IMG/VR virus record: IMGVR_UViG_3300036799_000135
Location: 1-29,949 of that record
DNA from: a virus
Strand: one strand, 5' to 3'
DNA length: 29,949 bases
Each line of letters opens with the position of its first letter. Within the stretch, counting starts at the first letter, position 1. Shown one piece after another: positions 4,689 to 18,457 of this stretch. The position numbers were made by a program, and so were the translations under genes. The notes below the pieces were generated by a model, which saw only the letters and a program-made list of their open reading frames with translations, did not search any database and was not told the DNA's origin.

Positions 4689-6547
4689 GTCGGCGGCGGG
4701 CGGCGTAGTGGGGGCGCGGCTCGAGAAGTCGGCGCTGCAATGGCTTGCGTCGTTAGGAAATGACATGTCGGTTCAGGGAAGGCTTGAGTCGCGCGGGCTT
4801 GGGTTGTCGGCCTGGGGCAGACGAGAGCTGGGCTAGGACTAGGTTGGGCTAGTCGGTTCAGACGAGGGGTAGACATGACGTGGGCGGCGCGTGGTCAGAC
4901 CTGTCGGGGTAGGGGTCGCGAATGAGCTGCCGTGGTTTGGTTTGTCGGCAGTGAGCTGACCGGAGGGGGCCCGACTTGGGGATGTCGGCGTGGAGCTGGC
5001 AAGCAATGGTGGGCGGTGGCAAGTCGGCGATGGCGTGGTTTGGCGAGGCCCGAACAAGACGGGACGAGCATAGTCGGCGATGGCATGGGCAGCTCGGACG
5101 AGGCGGGAATCGGCGGGGCGAGCGTAGTCGGCAACGATGTGGATCGGTGCTGAGAGGCAGCGGGTTGGAGTAGTCGGCAAACGGCAGGGCTCGTTCTGGC
5201 TTGGCCATGAATCGGCTTGTCGGTGATGGTCCGGCTCGGACGGCGAAGGCTCGGCTCGTGTGGTCGGGAAAGAGATCGGGGTCGACACGGGCGCGCAGTG
5301 CGTAGTCGGGGCTCGAGCGGGGTCGCGATGGCCAGGGATGACATGTCGGCAGTGACGGGGTACGACGAGACGTGCGAAGAGGCAGGTTAGTCGGCGCGGC
5401 GCAGGACTTGATGGTCGGGGCAGGCAAGGGATAGGCGCGGCTCGTTGTGGCTTGGGCCGTCAGTCGGCACAGACAAGGCATGGGTTGGGTGGTCGGCATC
5501 GCGAGGACGGGACGAGCGGGGGAACTGGGGATGGTCAGTCGGCACCGGATCGTTGTGGGTAAGGAAACGTGTCGCGTCGGCCTGGCATGGCGACGGCAAG
5601 GTTAGGCTCGGGATGTCGGACGCGCATAGAGGGGGCTCGCGCGGGGATAGGTACGGGTAGGAGATGTCGGCGGCGGCATGACTCGATTCGGAAAGAGCCG
5701 GCTTGAGGAGTCGGGTCCGATGGGGATGGGTGAGGACAGGTTGGGCTAGTCGGCCTGGGCCAGCGCTGGTGAGGCTAGGGCATGGTAAGGAGTGAAGGGA
5801 CCGGGAGCGTCGGTATCGACGGGACGGGGGCCGGCGGGCATCGACCGGGCATGTCGGCGGCGGGCGGATGAGCAATGACGGGGTTGGGCTCGCGTAGTCG
5901 CGGGAGCGGAATGGTGTTTGGCGAGATCCGGGAAGTCGGCAGCGGACTGGGGCGCGGGCAGGCACTCGGGCGGGCTGGAGGTGTCGGCAGCGCGAGGAGT
6001 TTGGGGCGACGAGGCGTGGTTTGTCGGCGGTGCAGAGCTACGACGTGCTCGAGGGCGGTGTTGGCCAGCGGGGTCGGCGTCGGCGAGGCGCGCAATCGGC
6101 TGGGGATGGGAAGTCGGGGCCGGACGGATTGGAAGCCGGCTCGAACCGACGTGGGTAGTCGGGCAGGGGCACGAGCTGGAATGAACGATGGCAAGAGGAT
6201 GACGCGACGAGGCCAGTCGGCTTCGGGGTCGGGATCGAGCTGGTTACGCATTGGTTAGTCGGCAGGGGCGAGGCCAGACGGGACACGGCTCGGACTTGAC
6301 GGGACGCGCTGTGAGCAGAACTGTGCAGTCGGCGTGCGGGCATGGCTGGGATCGCGACGGCAGGCATAGTCGGTTGGGGGCAGGCGAGTCGGCATCGAGG
6401 CTGCGCCGGTACGGCCGGACGTGCGTAGGTCGGACCAGTCGGCTGGGGCCAGACGAGCGATGATCCCCGCGTTGAGCCTGGGCTGTCGGGGAGGGTTGCG
6501 GTGGCGCGCGGAGGTCTGAAGCGCAATGCGCGGTCGCGGATAGTCGA
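4689..6547 (-). repeat. Pentanucleotide-phased short-delimiter array (about 42 units)
   Basis: On the minus strand CCGAC (mostly GCCGAC), usually followed by A/T, recurs 43 times. In plus coordinates GTCGG begins at 4689, 4728, 4767, 4806, 4852, 4903, 4944, 4984, 5023, 5073, 5127, 5173, 5219, 5263, 5305, 5345, 5390, 5414, 5463, 5492 and on to 6485 and 6543. The last and 5897 are variants (TTCGAC, GCGAC). Units are 19-70 nt, mostly 38-51. Inside them a C falls at every fifth base: words such as GAGCC, AAGCC, TACGC, ATGCC, CAACC, then a closing CGAC. 15 of 42 unit lengths are exactly 5n+4 and 11 are 5n (one six-base word). Units at 4689, 4728, 4767, 4984, 5073, 5219, 5463, 5666, 5710, 5809, 5853 and 6369 parse with every word ending in C. 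The words between are all different. Spacing is not a multiple of 3, so no protein repeat explains it. The plus strand is G-rich and C-poor throughout. No gene is supported in 4681-6616. Confidence 0.9.
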
Positions 6548-6616: not shown

Positions 6617-7408
6617 TCAGACGCCGTTGACGCTGGCGAGGAGCGGCTCGTCGGAGAGCTGCAGGCGGTCGACTCGCATGATCTCCTCCCACTGCTCAGC
6701 GGTCGGGTGGCCCAGCTTGTCCCAGCGGGTCAGGTCGAACTCGCCGTAGCCGGCGCTGCGCTTGGCGCCCAGGCCCTCCTGCTGGCAGAGGTTCCAGATC
6801 CGCACCCACTGATCGTCGCTCAGCGCATCCTCGAGCACCAGTACCTGAAACTCGATGTGGGCGCCGACCACGTACTCGCAGTAGCCCAGGCTCGAGCGCG
6901 GACCCTGCGGGCCGTTCAGATGCCCGATGGTCATCTCGATGCCGGTCGGCTCTTCGGCGTGGAGGAACAGCTCGTGCGGGTAGACAAATACCCGCTCGGC
7001 CAGCATTGACCGGAAGCCCTTCTTCGTCGGCCCCCAGCGCTGCGCCGAGAAGAGGATGTTCGTGCTCTCCTTCAGGGCGGCCTTGAGCTGGCGCGATTCG
7101 ATGTACAGCCCCTGCGCGCCGCGCTTGAAGCCGTTGGTCTGCTTGGTCTCGGCTTCCTTGTCGGTGAGCGTGACCAGATCGTCGTAGGACATGCCTGGTT
7201 TCACGTCCAGGCCCATGTCCAGCGCGGTCCTGGCCAGCGACTGGCGCAGCTCCTCCTGCTCGCTGATGCCAGCGCGAGCGCGCAACCAGCCCTCGATCAC
7301 TCGCGTGTTCTTGGGCACGCCGCCCATCACCTTGCCGCGCCATGCGAGCGCGCCGCCGTAGAGGGCCCACTGATTCAGTGCCGCTGGCTGGTTATCGAGA
7401 ACGCCCAC
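6617..7408 (-). CDS. Lone RAMP-superfamily (Cas7-like) protein
   Basis: 263 residues from a GTG, with GGAGGT 8 bases upstream; it overlaps the upstream gene by 17 bases. Two hallmarks of the RAMP fold are in the right order. Residues 100-114 read GLYIESRQLKAALKE, matching the I-P-x-S-x-L-K-x-x-L-[RK] motif of Csm3/Cmr/Cas7 proteins. Residues 212-224 read GLGAKRSAGYGEF, matching the C-terminal glycine-rich loop (G-hG-xxR-xxGyGxf). An early GKVMGG (25-30) and a strand before the loop (HIEFQVLVLED) also fit. Known members bind guide RNA, polymerise along it, or cleave it. No other cas gene is visible. It sits directly upstream of the pentamer-phased array on the same strand. Single RAMP-like genes also occur in other phages without known role, so binding to the array RNA is inference. 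Confidence 0.65.
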   Translation of the reverse strand: MGVLDNQPAALNQWALYGGALAWRGKVMGGVPKNTRVIEGWLRARAGISEQEELRQSLARTALDMGLDVKPGMSYDDLVTLTDKEAETKQTNGFKRGAQGLYIESRQLKAALKESTNILFSAQRWGPTKKGFRSMLAERVFVYPHELFLHAEEPTGIEMTIGHLNGPQGPRSSLGYCEYVVGAHIEFQVLVLEDALSDDQWVRIWNLCQQEGLGAKRSAGYGEFDLTRWDKLGHPTAEQWEEIMRVDRLQLSDEPLLASVNGV

Positions 7409-8051
7409 GTTTCTTTACCTCCGGTAGGTCAGGCAGGGACAGCACCGGGCCGTCCAGATCGGCGAACAGGTGCATCAGGTTCGGATCGTTGACCACGGGC
7501 AGCGCTTCGGTGGCGGCCAAGCGGGCGATCTCTTCGACGGTGAACTTGTCGCCCACGGTCTGGTCCTCGTTGTCGAGCTGCTCCTCGAGGAGCTGGTGGA
7601 TGCGCGCCACATGCAGGTAGCGGATGCCCAGCTTGACGCGCTCCCTGCGCGCCACGCGCAGATCCTTCTTGCGCATGTCGAGCAGACGGAGATGCTTGGA
7701 GCCCGCGTGCTCGAGCCACTCATCGAAAGCGGACGAGCGGCGCTCCACGAAGCGGTCGACCTCGACTGGCCCCAGAAGCTGGGCGCCCAGAAGGATGGGA
7801 GTACTCAGCCCTAGCTGTCGGCTAACAGCCATCAAATTGCCCAGCATGCCGCGCACAAGCGGTGCGACGTTTTCGGCGATCAACTCGCGGCGCCACTCGG
7901 GATCTTCATCGATTTCCCTGACGACACGCTCAACGATTTGAGGAGCCTCGAATTGATCCGAGTATGGATCGTCAAGGATGGCGCCAAGCGCTTCGCGAAG
8001 CCGGTCGCGAGCGTTGGGCGGTGGGGCTGGGATACGACGTATTTCTACCAA
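7392..8051 (-). CDS. Helical protein in operon with RAMP gene
   Basis: 219 residues from a TTG with GGAGGAG (8055-8061) 3-5 bases upstream; no competing ATG fits. The protein is almost wholly helical and charged. A central segment (FDEWLEHAGSKHLRLLDMRKKDL, then RVARRERVKLGIRYLHVARIHQLLEEQ) resembles helical proteins seen in other high-GC phages. The end is a polar, basic tail (EVKKRGRSR). There are no Cys, metal or nucleotide motifs. It is the first gene of the minus-strand unit that continues into the RAMP gene and array, so it could be a partner of the RAMP protein (a small-subunit-like role) or a regulator. Neither is shown by the sequence itself. Confidence 0.7.
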   Translation of the reverse strand: MVEIRRIPAPPPNARDRLREALGAILDDPYSDQFEAPQIVERVVREIDEDPEWRRELIAENVAPLVRGMLGNLMAVSRQLGLSTPILLGAQLLGPVEVDRFVERRSSAFDEWLEHAGSKHLRLLDMRKKDLRVARRERVKLGIRYLHVARIHQLLEEQLDNEDQTVGDKFTVEEIARLAATEALPVVNDPNLMHLFADLDGPVLSLPDLPEVKKRGRSR

Positions 8052-8227: not shown

Positions 8228-9988
8228 CTAGGCGGCGTTGTTGCGAATCGACGTAGCCAAGTACTTGGCTACCGCAATATGCAACGCGGGGGCCGTATCG
8301 ATGTTGAGTTCGAGGTGAGGCTGGTTGTCCCGGTCGATGACCACCTGACGGATCACCGCGCGGGCGATGTCGCCCCAGTCGGTGTCGGTGAGCTGGTCCC
8401 ACGGGACCGCCCGCAGCCTCCTCGCCACGCCGCGCGCGCTCTCGACTTCCCTCAGTGAGCGCGAGCTGTCGTTGAGCTGTTTGGTCAGCCGCTCGACTTC
8501 CTGCTCCGCTCCCGCCTTCGTTACGAGGATCTCTTTGCGGTTGATCTCGTAGGCGCCTTCGCTGATCCCGCCACGATTCTTTTCCTTCCAGAGATTCGCC
8601 TCGTCCTGATCGGCTTCCTTGACCTTCGCTTCGGCCGCAGCCAGCCGCTGTGCAAGCGTGTTGTCTCCAGGCTCGTCCCGGTTCGTCCACGCCTCCGCAG
8701 CCGCGTCGATCTCGTCCGCCAGGCCGCGCCGCTGGAGCAGCTCCTTGACCTGTTCCCAGACCGTGGAGAGGACCAGCAGCGCAGGCGTGCGGCAGCGGTG
8801 CGTGCCCGCGTACGCGGCCAGCTCCTCGTTGCGTCCGCTGCCCATGCTGGTCGCGCAGCGGAGGTACATGTGCGTCCTGGGAAAGGGCTTCCGCGAACCG
8901 TCCGGCATGACACGGTCGACGCGAGCGGTGATGTTCATCGTGTGCCCGCAGACGCCGCAGAAGACGCGCCTGCGCAGCGGGTGGTCGATCTTCGGCCAGC
9001 GGCCTTTGCCCTGCGTGCCCTTGGCCTTGATCGCGTCCTGCAGCTCCATGTACGTGGGCCGCGTGTCGCGCTCGCAACCAGCGCAAAGGGCCAGCTCGGC
9101 GGCGTCCTTGTGTAGCAGCGGCGGCACCGGAATGATGACCACCTCGTCCGCATCCTTCCTGTGGCTGAGCCGCATTTTGTTGCCGGTGTCGGGGTGACGC
9201 TTCCGGCTGTAGCGTGTGCGCGAATAGGGCAGCTCGCCGTAGAGCGCCGTGTGATGCAGCAGGCGGCTGATGCGGTCAGCGCTCCACATCAGGTCAGGCC
9301 GCTCTACCTCTTTAGGAGCGGCAATGCGCATCCAGACGGCCAGTGGCCGGGTGCGCTCGCCAGCTACGTAGCGTTCGATGAGCTGGACCATGATGTCGGC
9401 GCGGTCGGCGATCAGCATGCCGTGGTTCTTGTCGTCGCGGCCGATCCAGTAGGGCAGCACGCCCGCCATCAGCTCTCCGTGGCGTGCGCGGTAGATGCGC
9501 ATGTCCATGGTTCTCTGGCGGATGCTATCGCGTTCGTGGTCGCCAAACGCGGCGACGACGCCCAGCCACTTGCGGTCGAAGCGGTCGGTGCAGGAGAGCA
9601 GCTTGATCTGGTCCTGCGTCTCCTGCAGCAGCAGGGCGACCGGGCCAGCCGACGCGACACCGCGAAACAGACGGTCTGAGCGCCAGACGAGCAGCACGTC
9701 GTAGAACCCGGCGTGCCCCAGCTCGATGGCTTTGCGGAAGCCCGGGCGGTCGGGGTCGACGCCTTCAGCGTTGTGCTCCCAGATGTCGCCGACCTGAACG
9801 AGCTTCAGCTCTTCGATGAGGCGCTGGCAGGTTGTGTCCTGCTCCTCGAGCGAGACATCGCCCTCAGCGAGCTTGGCGCTCTTGCGGCGATAGACGAGGC
9901 AGCGGGCGCCGACCGGCGCGATGACGTTGGAGAACAGCTCTATCCCGTGCGGGTTGAGCTTTCGGGTGCCTGGCCGTCCTGATGGCAT
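8228..9988 (-). CDS. int: Large serine recombinase (phage integrase)
   Basis: 586 residues, ATG preceded by a strong GGGAGGTG. The N-terminal resolvase domain has the nucleophile in YRRKSAK (S37), the helix SLEEQDTTCQRLIEE, and the arginine motif VWRSDRLFR (R103, R106, R110). The recombinase domain follows (about 175-300). Then comes a zinc ribbon with C344, C347, C378 and C399 (FCGVCG, YLRC, HRC) and a coiled coil (about 435-530), all in large-serine-integrase order. This class integrates phage DNA through attP x attB and needs a directionality factor for excision, so the phage is temperate. The N-terminal 25 residues before the domain are extra. attP is expected close by, probably in 9990-10316 or 8080-8227, but I cannot identify its core. 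Confidence 0.92.
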   Translation of the reverse strand: MPSGRPGTRKLNPHGIELFSNVIAPVGARCLVYRRKSAKLAEGDVSLEEQDTTCQRLIEELKLVQVGDIWEHNAEGVDPDRPGFRKAIELGHAGFYDVLLVWRSDRLFRGVASAGPVALLLQETQDQIKLLSCTDRFDRKWLGVVAAFGDHERDSIRQRTMDMRIYRARHGELMAGVLPYWIGRDDKNHGMLIADRADIMVQLIERYVAGERTRPLAVWMRIAAPKEVERPDLMWSADRISRLLHHTALYGELPYSRTRYSRKRHPDTGNKMRLSHRKDADEVVIIPVPPLLHKDAAELALCAGCERDTRPTYMELQDAIKAKGTQGKGRWPKIDHPLRRRVFCGVCGHTMNITARVDRVMPDGSRKPFPRTHMYLRCATSMGSGRNEELAAYAGTHRCRTPALLVLSTVWEQVKELLQRRGLADEIDAAAEAWTNRDEPGDNTLAQRLAAAEAKVKEADQDEANLWKEKNRGGISEGAYEINRKEILVTKAGAEQEVERLTKQLNDSSRSLREVESARGVARRLRAVPWDQLTDTDWGDIARAVIRQVVIDRDNQPHLELNIDTAPALHIAVAKYLATSIRNNAA

Positions 9989-12818: not shown

Positions 12819-13014
12819 CCCCAACGTCATTGGGGATCGTGGCACCAGCTTCGGCGCCGCGCAGCTCCATCACGGCGGCTTGCTCGAGCACTTCCGCAGC
12901 GTGGGCTACACCGACCCGTTCTCGCCCTATCAAGCCATCGAATATCTGGGGCGGGCGCTGATCGGCGAGTGGGTCTACCTGGGCATCGGGGGCTGGTCAT
13001 GGACCTGCAGGTAG
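12643..13014 (+). CDS. Secreted lytic transglycosylase-like protein
   Basis: 123 residues from ATG 12643 with GGGGGG about 6 bases upstream. A classical signal peptide (MRRLAWGLVPLCLVFGTGQANA, cleavage at ANA|YS) precedes an SLT/lysozyme-like domain: AESYGVSAQRLTSIVGCETGW with the likely catalytic Glu in CETGW, then GTSFGAAQLHHGGLLEHF and SPYQAIEYLGRAL. Such enzymes cut the glycan strands of peptidoglycan. It is unusual to find one among early DNA genes. It may locally open the wall, support superinfection exclusion or act in lysis independent of a holin. It overlaps the nuclease frame by 176 bases and the methyltransferase start by 16 bases. Confidence 0.72.
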   Translation: MRRLAWGLVPLCLVFGTGQANAYSADDTQAAIAQVAESYGVSAQRLTSIVGCETGWTFSPNVIGDRGTSFGAAQLHHGGLLEHFRSVGYTDPFSPYQAIEYLGRALIGEWVYLGIGGWSWTCR

Positions 13015-13979
13015 TCCAGCCCATCGAGCAGACGCGGAGCCTGGAGGACATCGCCGACGACATCCGCGCCGCTCAGTACGAGGGCCGCCGCGCCATGCTC
13101 GACGGGGCTGTCCGCATCGGCCAGCTCCTGCTCGAAGCCAGGCCGCAGTTCACCGGCGACGAGAAGGGCTACCTGGCCTGGGCGCGGACCGAGTTCGGCT
13201 ACCGCCGTGCGCACGTCTTCAACCTGCTCAAGCTAGCGAACGAGGTCCAACGCGTTGGACGGGGTGCGCTGAATGGCAGTCTGCGCCAGGTATTGGCGGC
13301 GCTGATACCGGACGAGGAGGATGAGGAGCCGGCGCCGCCGCCGGAGCCGGGCACCGTCGAGCTGGACGAGGACGTGTCGCTGCTGCGCTACTGCCAGAAC
13401 CTCGACACCGCGACCATCGTGGCGCTGATCCTGGCCGTCTTCTTCGGCGACGCCGAGACCGCGCTCGACGTGACCTACGGGTCGGGCAACTTCTGGAACG
13501 GCAGCGCCCACGTGCGGGTGGCGGCGGCGCACGATGCCAACCCCAACCGGGCGCCGGGTGGAGCTGCGGATTTCCGCGAGCTGCACTATGGGGATAACTC
13601 CTTCGACGTGGTGGTATTCGACCCACCACATATCGCCGACGCCGGCGAGGAGTCGGTCATGGGACACCGCTTCGGCACGTACTCCAATGCCGAATTGCCG
13701 ACCGTGATCGCGGACGGCACGCGCGAGGCCTGGCGGGTGGCGAAGCTCGGCATCGTGGTGAAAGTGACGGACCACTCGCACAGTGGGCGGTACGTGCTCG
13801 AGTCGGACTGGGTGCGCTCTGCCATTGACGTTGCGCCGTATGACGTGGTGCATCAGGTGCGGACCGGCGCGCTGGTGGACCCGAAGTGGAACGAGCAGAT
13901 GAGCGCGTACAACAACGGCTCGACGTTTCTGATCTTCCGCAAGGACGGGCCGCTGCACCGGCGGCGGACGCGAGCATGA
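12999..13979 (+). CDS. DUF3102-like N-terminus fused to DPPH-motif DNA methyltransferase
   Basis: 326 residues from ATG 12999, preceded by GGGGG. The in-frame start at 12969 lies inside the previous gene. Residues 15-85 (YEGRRAMLDGAVRIGQLLLE, then KGYLAWARTEFGYRRAHVFNLLKLA) match the DUF3102 pattern found in phage ParB-like or DNA-binding proteins. After an acidic/Pro linker (106-125), residues 150-310 have methyltransferase motifs: I in LDVTYGSGNFW (156-166) and IV in VVVFDPPH (204-211). The DPP[YHW] motif is that of N6-adenine or N4-cytosine enzymes. Motif order is circularly plain (I before IV). It could protect phage DNA from host restriction or mark sites for a phage process. The fusion may direct the enzyme to a DNA site. 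Confidence 0.75.
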   Translation: MDLQVVQPIEQTRSLEDIADDIRAAQYEGRRAMLDGAVRIGQLLLEARPQFTGDEKGYLAWARTEFGYRRAHVFNLLKLANEVQRVGRGALNGSLRQVLAALIPDEEDEEPAPPPEPGTVELDEDVSLLRYCQNLDTATIVALILAVFFGDAETALDVTYGSGNFWNGSAHVRVAAAHDANPNRAPGGAADFRELHYGDNSFDVVVFDPPHIADAGEESVMGHRFGTYSNAELPTVIADGTREAWRVAKLGIVVKVTDHSHSGRYVLESDWVRSAIDVAPYDVVHQVRTGALVDPKWNEQMSAYNNGSTFLIFRKDGPLHRRRTRA

Positions 13980-17308: not shown

Positions 17309-17475
17309 TCGAGTCCTGCCGGAGCTGCGGCGCCGACATCTACTGGTCGACCACGGACAAGGACAAGGCGTGCCCGTACGACGTGGTCGACGGCGAGCCG
17401 ACGCGTGAGTCGCACTTCAGGAGCTGTCCGCACGCAAGGCAGTGGAGCAAGCGTGCGAGCAGTGAGTCTGTTTAG
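17266..17475 (+). CDS. Small zinc-binding protein
   Basis: 69 residues from ATG 17266 with GGAGG 9 bases upstream. It has CRSCGADIYW (a rubredoxin-like knuckle) with CPYD and CPHARQW completing a likely four-Cys/His site. The sequence is of a type common in phages, often read as a zinc-ribbon that binds nucleic acid. It overlaps the cytosine methyltransferase start by 23 bases, so the two are probably co-translated. Confidence 0.65.
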   Translation: MALVKDPKTGRTRVIESCRSCGADIYWSTTDKDKACPYDVVDGEPTRESHFRSCPHARQWSKRASSESV

Positions 17476-18457
17476 CGGCGTCGGTGGCTTCGAGCTGGGA
17501 TTCGAGCGGGCCGGCATCCGGACTATCCTGCAGGCTGAAAGTGACCCGCAGTGTCGCGCCGTGCTCGAGCGGCGCTTTCCGGAAATTCCGCGGCTGAAGG
17601 ATGTCCGAGATGTTGGTCACCCGCTCGGTGTGGATCTCGTCTACGGCGGATTCCCATGCCAGGATGTCAGCCTGGCCGGTCGGCGGCGCGGCCTTTCCGG
17701 TGCTCGCAGCTCACTCTGGTTTGAGTTTGAACGAGTGCTGCGCGATCTGCGGCCACGATGGTGCGTCGTTGAGAATGTTCCCGGACTTCTTAGCAGTCAT
17801 CGCGGGCGCGATTTCGCCACGATCCTCCTGGCGCTGGATGAACTCGGGTATGGCGTGGCGTGGCGGACTCTGGACGCGCGATGGTTCGGAGTCGCCCAGC
17901 GTCGTAAGAGGGTGTTCCTTGTCGGCTGTCTTGGAGACCCGCACCCTGCCCAGCAGGTACTGGCTGTCTGCGAGAGCTGCGGAGGGTATCCTGCGGCGCG
18001 CCGCCGCGCGTGGCCGACCGCTGGAGACAAAGCTGATGGCGGCGCTGACGACATTGGCTATGCGGTCAGCTCCCAGCAGAAGCACTACGACCGCGAGCAG
18101 ACGTACGTCCTCGCGACGCCGCTCACCGCGTCTGACGGACACCACGGTTGGCGTGGACCACGCGGTGACGGACAGGACAACCTGATCGTCTCGAGCGGCG
18201 TGCGGCGTCTGACGCCGCTCGAGTGTGAACGCCTGATGGGCTGGCCTGATGGCTGGACCGATGTCGACGGCTTGGCCGACACGCCGCGCTACCGCATGAT
18301 CGGCAACGGCGTGGTCGCGCCGGTCGCGGAATGGCTCGGCCACCGGCTGGTCGCGGTCGACGCACACACAAAAGCGGGCCAGCCTCACGAGGAGACTGAC
18401 CCGCAGTGGACGCAGCTCGCGCTGCCGCCCGACGTGGTGGTCGACGTGCGCTACTGA
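17453..18457 (+). CDS. dcm: C5-cytosine DNA methyltransferase
   Basis: 334 residues from GTG 17453 with GGAG 6 bases upstream; the longer frame reaches 17405 but lies in the previous gene. Motifs are in canonical order: I SLFSGVGGFELGF, IV GGFPCQDVS with catalytic Cys 69, VI ENVPG, VIII QRRKRVF, and IX-X LTPLECERLMGWPDGW with RMIGNGVVAPVAEWL. It moves a methyl group from AdoMet to C5 of cytosine in a short site given by the target region (about 190-270), which is short. With the DPPH enzyme at 12999 this makes two modification genes in one phage, suggesting strong restriction pressure. No partner restriction gene is seen. It meets the minus-strand operon tail to tail with a 7-base overlap. 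Confidence 0.92.
   Translation: MRAVSLFSGVGGFELGFERAGIRTILQAESDPQCRAVLERRFPEIPRLKDVRDVGHPLGVDLVYGGFPCQDVSLAGRRRGLSGARSSLWFEFERVLRDLRPRWCVVENVPGLLSSHRGRDFATILLALDELGYGVAWRTLDARWFGVAQRRKRVFLVGCLGDPHPAQQVLAVCESCGGYPAARRRAWPTAGDKADGGADDIGYAVSSQQKHYDREQTYVLATPLTASDGHHGWRGPRGDGQDNLIVSSGVRRLTPLECERLMGWPDGWTDVDGLADTPRYRMIGNGVVAPVAEWLGHRLVAVDAHTKAGQPHEETDPQWTQLALPPDVVVDVRY

Follow-up and report, generated by a model that had tools for sequence, protein, structure and literature searches.

What does a RAMP protein do in a phage genome with no other cas genes in evidence? The question is raised by a 29,949-nucleotide stretch of viral DNA, referred to here as the window (positions 1 to 29,949 of IMG/VR record IMGVR_UViG_3300036799_000135). 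A sequence-only reading of the window described a lone RAMP gene, lying next to a non-CRISPR array and belonging to no known CRISPR type. The coordinates given there (6617-7408) span the protein gene only. The locus appears to have been misread as an orphan RAMP. It very probably belongs to VIPR, with a long array of punctuated guides that are probably directed against rival mobile elements.

VIPR (Viral Interference Programmable Repeat) is a phage RNA-guided system that was described in 2026 in a preprint (PMC13142463). A literature search on vrRNA and VIPR found nothing beyond that source. As the preprint describes it, a VIPR locus consists of a phage-encoded RAMP protein with a single RRM, an accessory gene, and vrRNAs made of alternating GGY/NN pentamers. 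The system represses competing mobile DNA via a 1-nt skip code and is proposed to be a pre-CRISPR use of RAMP proteins. Seven types are described, with variable array architectures, including staggered ones, and related consensus sequences, and the vap genes fall into six families (PMC13142463). The reference for type II is Escherichia phage SUSP1 (genome KT454805.2), whose vrRNAs were shown by sRNA sequencing and carry 9-16 repeats followed by a structured 3' tail (PMC13142463). The vipr and vap1 genes of SUSP1 were provisionally assigned here from the text of the preprint together with the annotation of the genome record.

The vipr-like RAMP gene of the window occupies 6617-7408 on the minus strand. 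Its reading frame begins with a GTG, runs from 7408 to 6617, and encodes a product of 263 amino acids. Both motifs that the sequence-only reading had pointed out were found in this frame: IESRQLKAALK, which corresponds to I-x-S-x-x-LK-x-x-LK, and the glycine-rich loop GLGAKRSAGYGEF at residues 212-224. The G, G, A, R, and G residues of the loop are invariant across 50 aligned RAMP sequences. Searches of Pfam and PHROG with the single sequence matched no family. Csm4, Cmr6, and type IV Cas7 gave sub-threshold matches over the glycine loop (NCBIfam Csm4, E=0.0014 and 18 bits where 55 are needed; PADLOC Csm4, 8.7e-5), and a profile search of the PDB gave a weak match to the glycine loop of Csm4/Cmr6-like RAMPs only.

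Further evidence on the nature of the protein comes from structure prediction. An AlphaFold2 model made with 50 aligned relatives reached a pLDDT of 90.8 and a pTM of 0.84. A Foldseek comparison of the model with the PDB returned 160 chains at E<=1e-3, with type VII Cas7 at the top followed by Csm3 and Cmr subunits, and the VIA-align Z scores were 12.6 for type VII Cas7, 12.1 for Csm3, and 10.2 for Cmr4. The model contains one ferredoxin/RRM-like domain, with no second RRM domain, and a helical insert at approximately residues 24-98, which is the position of RAMP thumbs, the domain that VIPR proteins use for RNA contact. The product of 6617-7408 is therefore, as modeled, a RAMP with a single RRM-like domain. 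The ferredoxin-like fold on which the sequence-only reading had staked its RAMP call was predicted, and the call of a phage-encoded RAMP was borne out by this fold and its matches. The family also has motifs that are conserved specifically in it (MGG-P and GLYIE-RQ-KA), which suggests that it has a function of its own.

Downstream of the RAMP gene, at 4689-6489, lies a candidate vrRNA (guide) array that was recognized by GTCGG anchors and a 5-nt periodicity. It is tentatively placed on the plus strand and would thus converge with the vipr gene. Its end was set at 6489, the end of the last GTCGG, and the periodic hidden Markov model (HMM) was run to 6520. The tract holds 44 copies of GTCGG on the plus strand and two of CCGAC, compared with a mean of 10.0 and a maximum of 22 copies of GTCGG in 1000 dinucleotide shuffles. 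The commonest spacing between anchors is 39 nt, and the commonest spacing class is 5n+4 (16 of 43). Pentamers of the form G-(G/A)-(C/G)-N-N fill the stretches between the anchors. The frequency of G is 0.93, 0.80, and 0.70 at positions +9, +14, and +19 downstream of the anchors, and 0.86, 0.80, and 0.82 at positions -5, -10, and -15 upstream of them.

A cyclic HMM of the window array gained 120 log units with a period of 5, compared with 10-43 for periods of 3, 4, 6, 7, and 8. With a period of 5, nine other stretches of the window gained 5-13 and three shuffled sequences 3-6. The 5-nt score of the array was 0.049, and the maximum in 1000 dinucleotide shuffles was 0.019. In other words, the 5-nt array beside the RAMP gene is real and far from chance. 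On the plus strand, the HMM consensus is G (.99), G/A, C/G, N, N. The third position (C.42, G.27) is not strictly Y, and the first G alone is nearly invariant. Folding of the vipr end of the array gave no structured tail (z 0.5), an Rfam scan of the window gave no match, ribozymes included, and no promoter-like sites were found in the window region.

Tandem- and direct-repeat searches of the window found no CRISPR array, and PADLOC found no cas gene beyond the RAMP among 12 window proteins, smaller ORFs lying outside the scan. The sequence-only reading was thus right that a non-CRISPR array adjoins the gene and, for the proteins scanned, that other cas genes are missing. A CRISPR remnant was rejected on the same two grounds. 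Tracts of 5-nt periodicity escape tandem-repeat and CRISPR-type repeat searches, and other solitary phage RAMPs deserve a check for such neighbors.

A partner gene, the candidate vap (vipr-accessory protein) gene, lies at 7392-8051 on the minus strand and overlaps the start of vipr by 17 nt. Its product of 219 amino acids is predicted to be mostly helical (AlphaFold2, pLDDT 80.4). The model had no fold match in the PDB at E<=1e-3, and no Pfam family was assigned to the vap family. A Pfam glycosyltransferase match was disregarded, as it was below the cut-off (E=0.012) and confined to the window member. PHROG 4604, whose function is unknown, was matched by 11 of 35 members of the family. Directly upstream of the vap-vipr operon, at 8228-9988, is a large serine recombinase (Pfam Resolvase, 3e-14; PHROG integrase, 1.6e-42), which suggests a temperate phage. 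Elsewhere the window encodes a RecT-like protein, a C-5 cytosine methylase, GP88, a terminase, and an S74 chaperone. Two of its genes, at 17405-18457 and 12969-13979, are DNA methyltransferase-like, one of them being the clear C-5 cytosine methylase.

Is the RAMP gene found elsewhere with the same neighbors? Profile scans of IMG/VR for the RAMP family yielded 10 loci and then 60. Scans of genome contigs yielded none at first and then one locus, in Streptacidiphilus carbonis; among 394 Streptomycetaceae genomes, two had a copy of the RAMP, S. carbonis included. A plasmid search found no relatives. In the S. carbonis assembly, a run of 286 N lies within the vrRNA array (L064:8933-9928), perhaps due to poor assembly or masking of such arrays. 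Phage Mae-JY09 (L002, PP395641.1) encodes a relative that is 46% identical. It is the only INPHARED phage matched with the vipr family, and its array occupies the right-hand end of that record. Mae-JY09 is recorded from Microcystis, yet its genome is GC-rich by eye, and the host assignment may deserve a check. The IMG/VR loci, the window, and Mae-JY09, minus ten near-duplicates, made up a set of 52 loci.

Of these 52 non-duplicate loci, 40 have a member of the vap family, linked by HMM, no more than 2.2 kb from vipr, and all 40 members share its strand. The family was absent from the other 12, in four of which (L012, L023, L038, and L057) vipr starts less than 0.7 kb from the end of the locus. 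The periodic tract also accompanies the gene. With near and far windows matched in number, the best 5-nt-periodic window lay close to vipr in 46 of the 50 loci that offered enough sequence, a count that treats related phages as separate. The exceptions were L026, L039, L057, and L058, the last of which has a second tract. An earlier comparison favored the near side in 56 of 57 loci; it let the best of the near windows compete with far windows taken singly and is therefore flattering, and the paired count is the fair one. The cassette of a RAMP, a co-oriented partner gene, and a 5-nt-repeat array is conserved across dozens of phages. In L026 (approximately 8334-8610), vipr is split after RQLKAAL and resumes at KESTNIL. 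The intervening sequence has stops in each of the three frames read and no match in Rfam, and it may represent an intron or an insertion that disrupts the gene. A different phage of this family carries a group I intron (L062:3827-4098; Rfam RF00028, 88.9 bits).

The arrays share a design and differ in content. The consensus in 33 loci is mostly G-G-C/G-N-N, preceded rarely by G, and it is looser in A+T-rich phages. The (A)GTCGG anchor is enriched in most loci, and elsewhere variants such as GTCGAA, GTCGCATC, GTCA, and TGACGGCGAG are present. In clean runs, (A)GTCGG closes a guide of GGNNN units. When related phages were compared, the RAMP gene aligned and the array mostly failed to align. Between L006 and L007, both ends of the array are kept, and anchor-bounded units have been gained or lost. 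In homologous array segments from five locus pairs (ten were tried, the other five having too few sites), substitutions at phases 1 to 5 numbered 18/218, 52/213, 69/212, 62/210, and 76/211. Dinucleotide statistics, computed to see which two positions of the repeat are read, pointed in two directions: the highest dependence fell on positions 3-4 (z 11.5 and 13.1), whereas the dinucleotides at positions 4-5 were the most genome-like. Each 5-nt repeat has one nearly invariant G with variable neighbors, and anchor-bounded units are rapidly gained and lost.

These features lead to VIPR. The window locus shows a RAMP with an RRM and a G-loop, a minimal viral locus of vipr and vap, and 5-nt tandem repeats. 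Because its array is not strictly GGY, its membership rests on the related consensus sequences that the description of VIPR allows. As a positive control, the same periodicity score was applied to SUSP1, where GGTNN tracts flank vipr and vap1, and it ranked the vrRNA tracts first in 50 kb. At the sequence level, a profile of the RAMP family matched eight SUSP1-like Vipr proteins in hhalign (E=3.2e-4, probability 39). The match is weak, and it is collinear over 137 columns and runs through the KA..K helix and the G-loop. The single RAMP sequence against SUSP1 Vipr gave a probability of 6, and the vap family showed no similarity to SUSP1 vap1. Taken together, it is very likely that the window locus encodes a VIPR system whose array is long, punctuated, and presumably read against vipr, and that this system would bind and repress rival mobile DNA. 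The view of a lone RAMP of no known type has therefore given way to that of a conserved cassette that matches VIPR.

How would such a system work? RNA binding, an NN code with a 1-nt skip, and repression of rival elements are carried over here from the published SUSP1 VIPR. By this analogy, vrRNAs made from the neighboring array would be coated by Vipr, with each 5-nt repeat occupied by a single subunit. Vipr would hold the conserved G(G), leaving the variable last two bases (NN) of the repeat to pair with the target DNA, and every repeat would skip one base of the target, as in SUSP1. Each guide would comprise about 7-10 repeats ending in (A)GTCGG, which for the window amounts to about 40 putative guides. 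Where a competing phage, satellite, or prophage has a matching sequence, the complex may bind its double-stranded DNA and prevent transcription, presumably assisted by the vap protein.

Which strand would provide the guide? In 47 of the 52 loci, the G-rich strand of the array runs against vipr, and in the other five the orientation is flipped. Between L050 and L053, the vipr-vap segment aligns directly and both flanks align in reverse, which means that the segment is inverted relative to its surroundings. At the array starts of two loci, promoter-like hexamers were seen on the G-rich strand (L048:10742-10771 and L042:7055-7082), although the number of such sites is at the chance level. One alternative within the same system is that guides are made from the C-rich strand as part of the vap-vipr transcript, so that NNSCC rather than GGSNN is recognized and CCGAC opens the guides. 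The C-rich strand runs in the direction of vipr in the same 47 loci, as the SUSP1 vrRNAs do, which speaks for this alternative. Furthermore, 20 loci have the array placed between the vap and vipr genes, which would make a separate promoter unnecessary, and the next gene downstream in L007 is likewise on the C-rich strand. However, the strand that is both GGTNN and vipr-sense in SUSP1 is the one for which vrRNAs were demonstrated by sequencing (PMC13142463), and an operon promoter cannot serve the array in all loci, given the five flips and the L050/L053 inversion. The promoter-like sites, for what chance-level numbers are worth, are also on the G-rich strand. The C-rich guide is thus unlikely, and the G-rich strand is preferred because of the RNA strand of SUSP1 and the flips in orientation relative to vipr.

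Targets were sought for the putative guides locally and in larger collections, and none was found. The local search compared 529 guide runs from the 52 loci with 1.5 Mb of the loci on both strands, with NN placed at positions 2-3, 3-4, or 4-5 and a skip of 0-3. With skips of 0-2, near-perfect matches in other loci numbered 5-19 per rule, which is about chance, and matches with a skip of 3 were rejected as the array matching itself. Four exact gapped patterns (from the window, L013, L022, and L061) had 0 matches each in IMG/VR. One guide pattern, allowed at most one mismatch, had 5 matches in the 394 Streptomycetaceae genomes compared with 8 for the reversed control.

Two other readings would take the locus out of VIPR. 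The first is a new RNA-guided system in which 5-nt repeats arose by convergence from a Cas7-like subunit. The weak sequence link to Vipr, the unrelated vap, and the different punctuation and consensus are what one would expect from it. However, the fold class, the 5-nt unit, the minimal vap-vipr-array layout, and the phage setting are the same as in published VIPR, whose seven types are themselves described as varied in array architecture and related in consensus (PMC13142463). Convergence is accordingly improbable. The second is an anti-CRISPR role, in which a Cas7/Csm subunit taken up by the phage would inhibit the CRISPR-Cas of the host or serve it as a decoy, and the array would be unrelated to the RAMP. 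The nearest solved folds are indeed CRISPR subunits, and phage-borne anti-CRISPR mimics of CRISPR parts are described in the form of Racrs (PMC10651486). However, an unrelated array would not be expected to accompany the RAMP gene across dozens of phages, as the paired near/far count shows, nor the partner gene to do so in most loci, and the family-specific motifs argue for a function of the protein's own. This second reading is very improbable. A minisatellite or decayed coding sequence was rejected because the periodic tract keeps its place beside vipr from phage to phage and differs in sequence between them, and a hammerhead-interspersed array because no Rfam ribozyme was present in the window or in the 21 loci scanned (about 40 loci lay outside that scan).

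If the VIPR assignment holds, the RAMP family offers, from one phage window, a large array with delimited guide units that turn over between close relatives. Guide punctuation, processing, and acquisition can therefore be asked about in a setting without Cas1/Cas2 or Cas6. With a family member in the sequenced phage Mae-JY09, the system may be open to experiment.

How does the window locus compare with known systems? Type VII Cas7 and the type III subunits Csm3 and Cmr4 have the same fold as the modeled RAMP, at 6-18% identity in the structural alignments listed for CRISPR Cas7/Csm3/Cmr4-type folds. A viral RAMP in BFVD also shares it (A0A8S5R426, "Cas system-associated RAMP superfamily protein" of Siphoviridae sp. 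ctcMb1; Foldseek E=3.2e-12). Unlike in class 1 CRISPR-Cas, no Cas10, Cas14, Cas5, or Cas6 was found among the window proteins scanned, and no CRISPR array in the window. The Tas effector of TIGR-Tas carries a Nop-type RNA-binding domain, and no Nop domain was among the Pfam families listed for the RAMP and vap families. TIGR-Tas is likewise described as RNA-guided, compact, and phage-borne, with its guides in a tandem array, but its effector was found from the guide-RNA-interaction domain of Cas9 (PMC12045711), whereas the window protein is a predicted RAMP. The spacing of the guide scaffold is 5 nt in the window array, in contrast to the 6 nt given for class 1 thumbs (PMC13142463).

The closest comparison is with the VIPR of SUSP1. 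Both loci have a phage-encoded RAMP with one RRM and a G-loop, an accessory gene in the same operon, and non-coding tandem pentamers beside the genes with a conserved G(G) and variable neighbors. However, SUSP1 has four vrRNAs of ~100 nt, GGTNN in sequence and on the vipr strand, whereas the window has one 1.8-kb array, putatively on the opposite strand, with 44 GTCGG-marked units of ~7-10 repeats, a looser consensus, and no visible tail. The window vap is also unrelated to SUSP1 vap1. The GTCGG marks, the antisense array, the lack of a stable tail, the looser consensus, and the unmatched vap1 indicate that the locus is not VIPR type II. One possibility, which is put forward tentatively, is a distinct VIPR type with a CRISPR-like array. 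A single phage would keep dozens of short guides, each a series of GGSNN pentamers that ends in (A)GTCGG; the guides would come and go as modules, would be read against the direction of the vap-vipr operon, and would be served by a helical accessory protein of their own. The GTCGG mark may reset the phase or direct processing, and it may be a forerunner of the CRISPR repeat.
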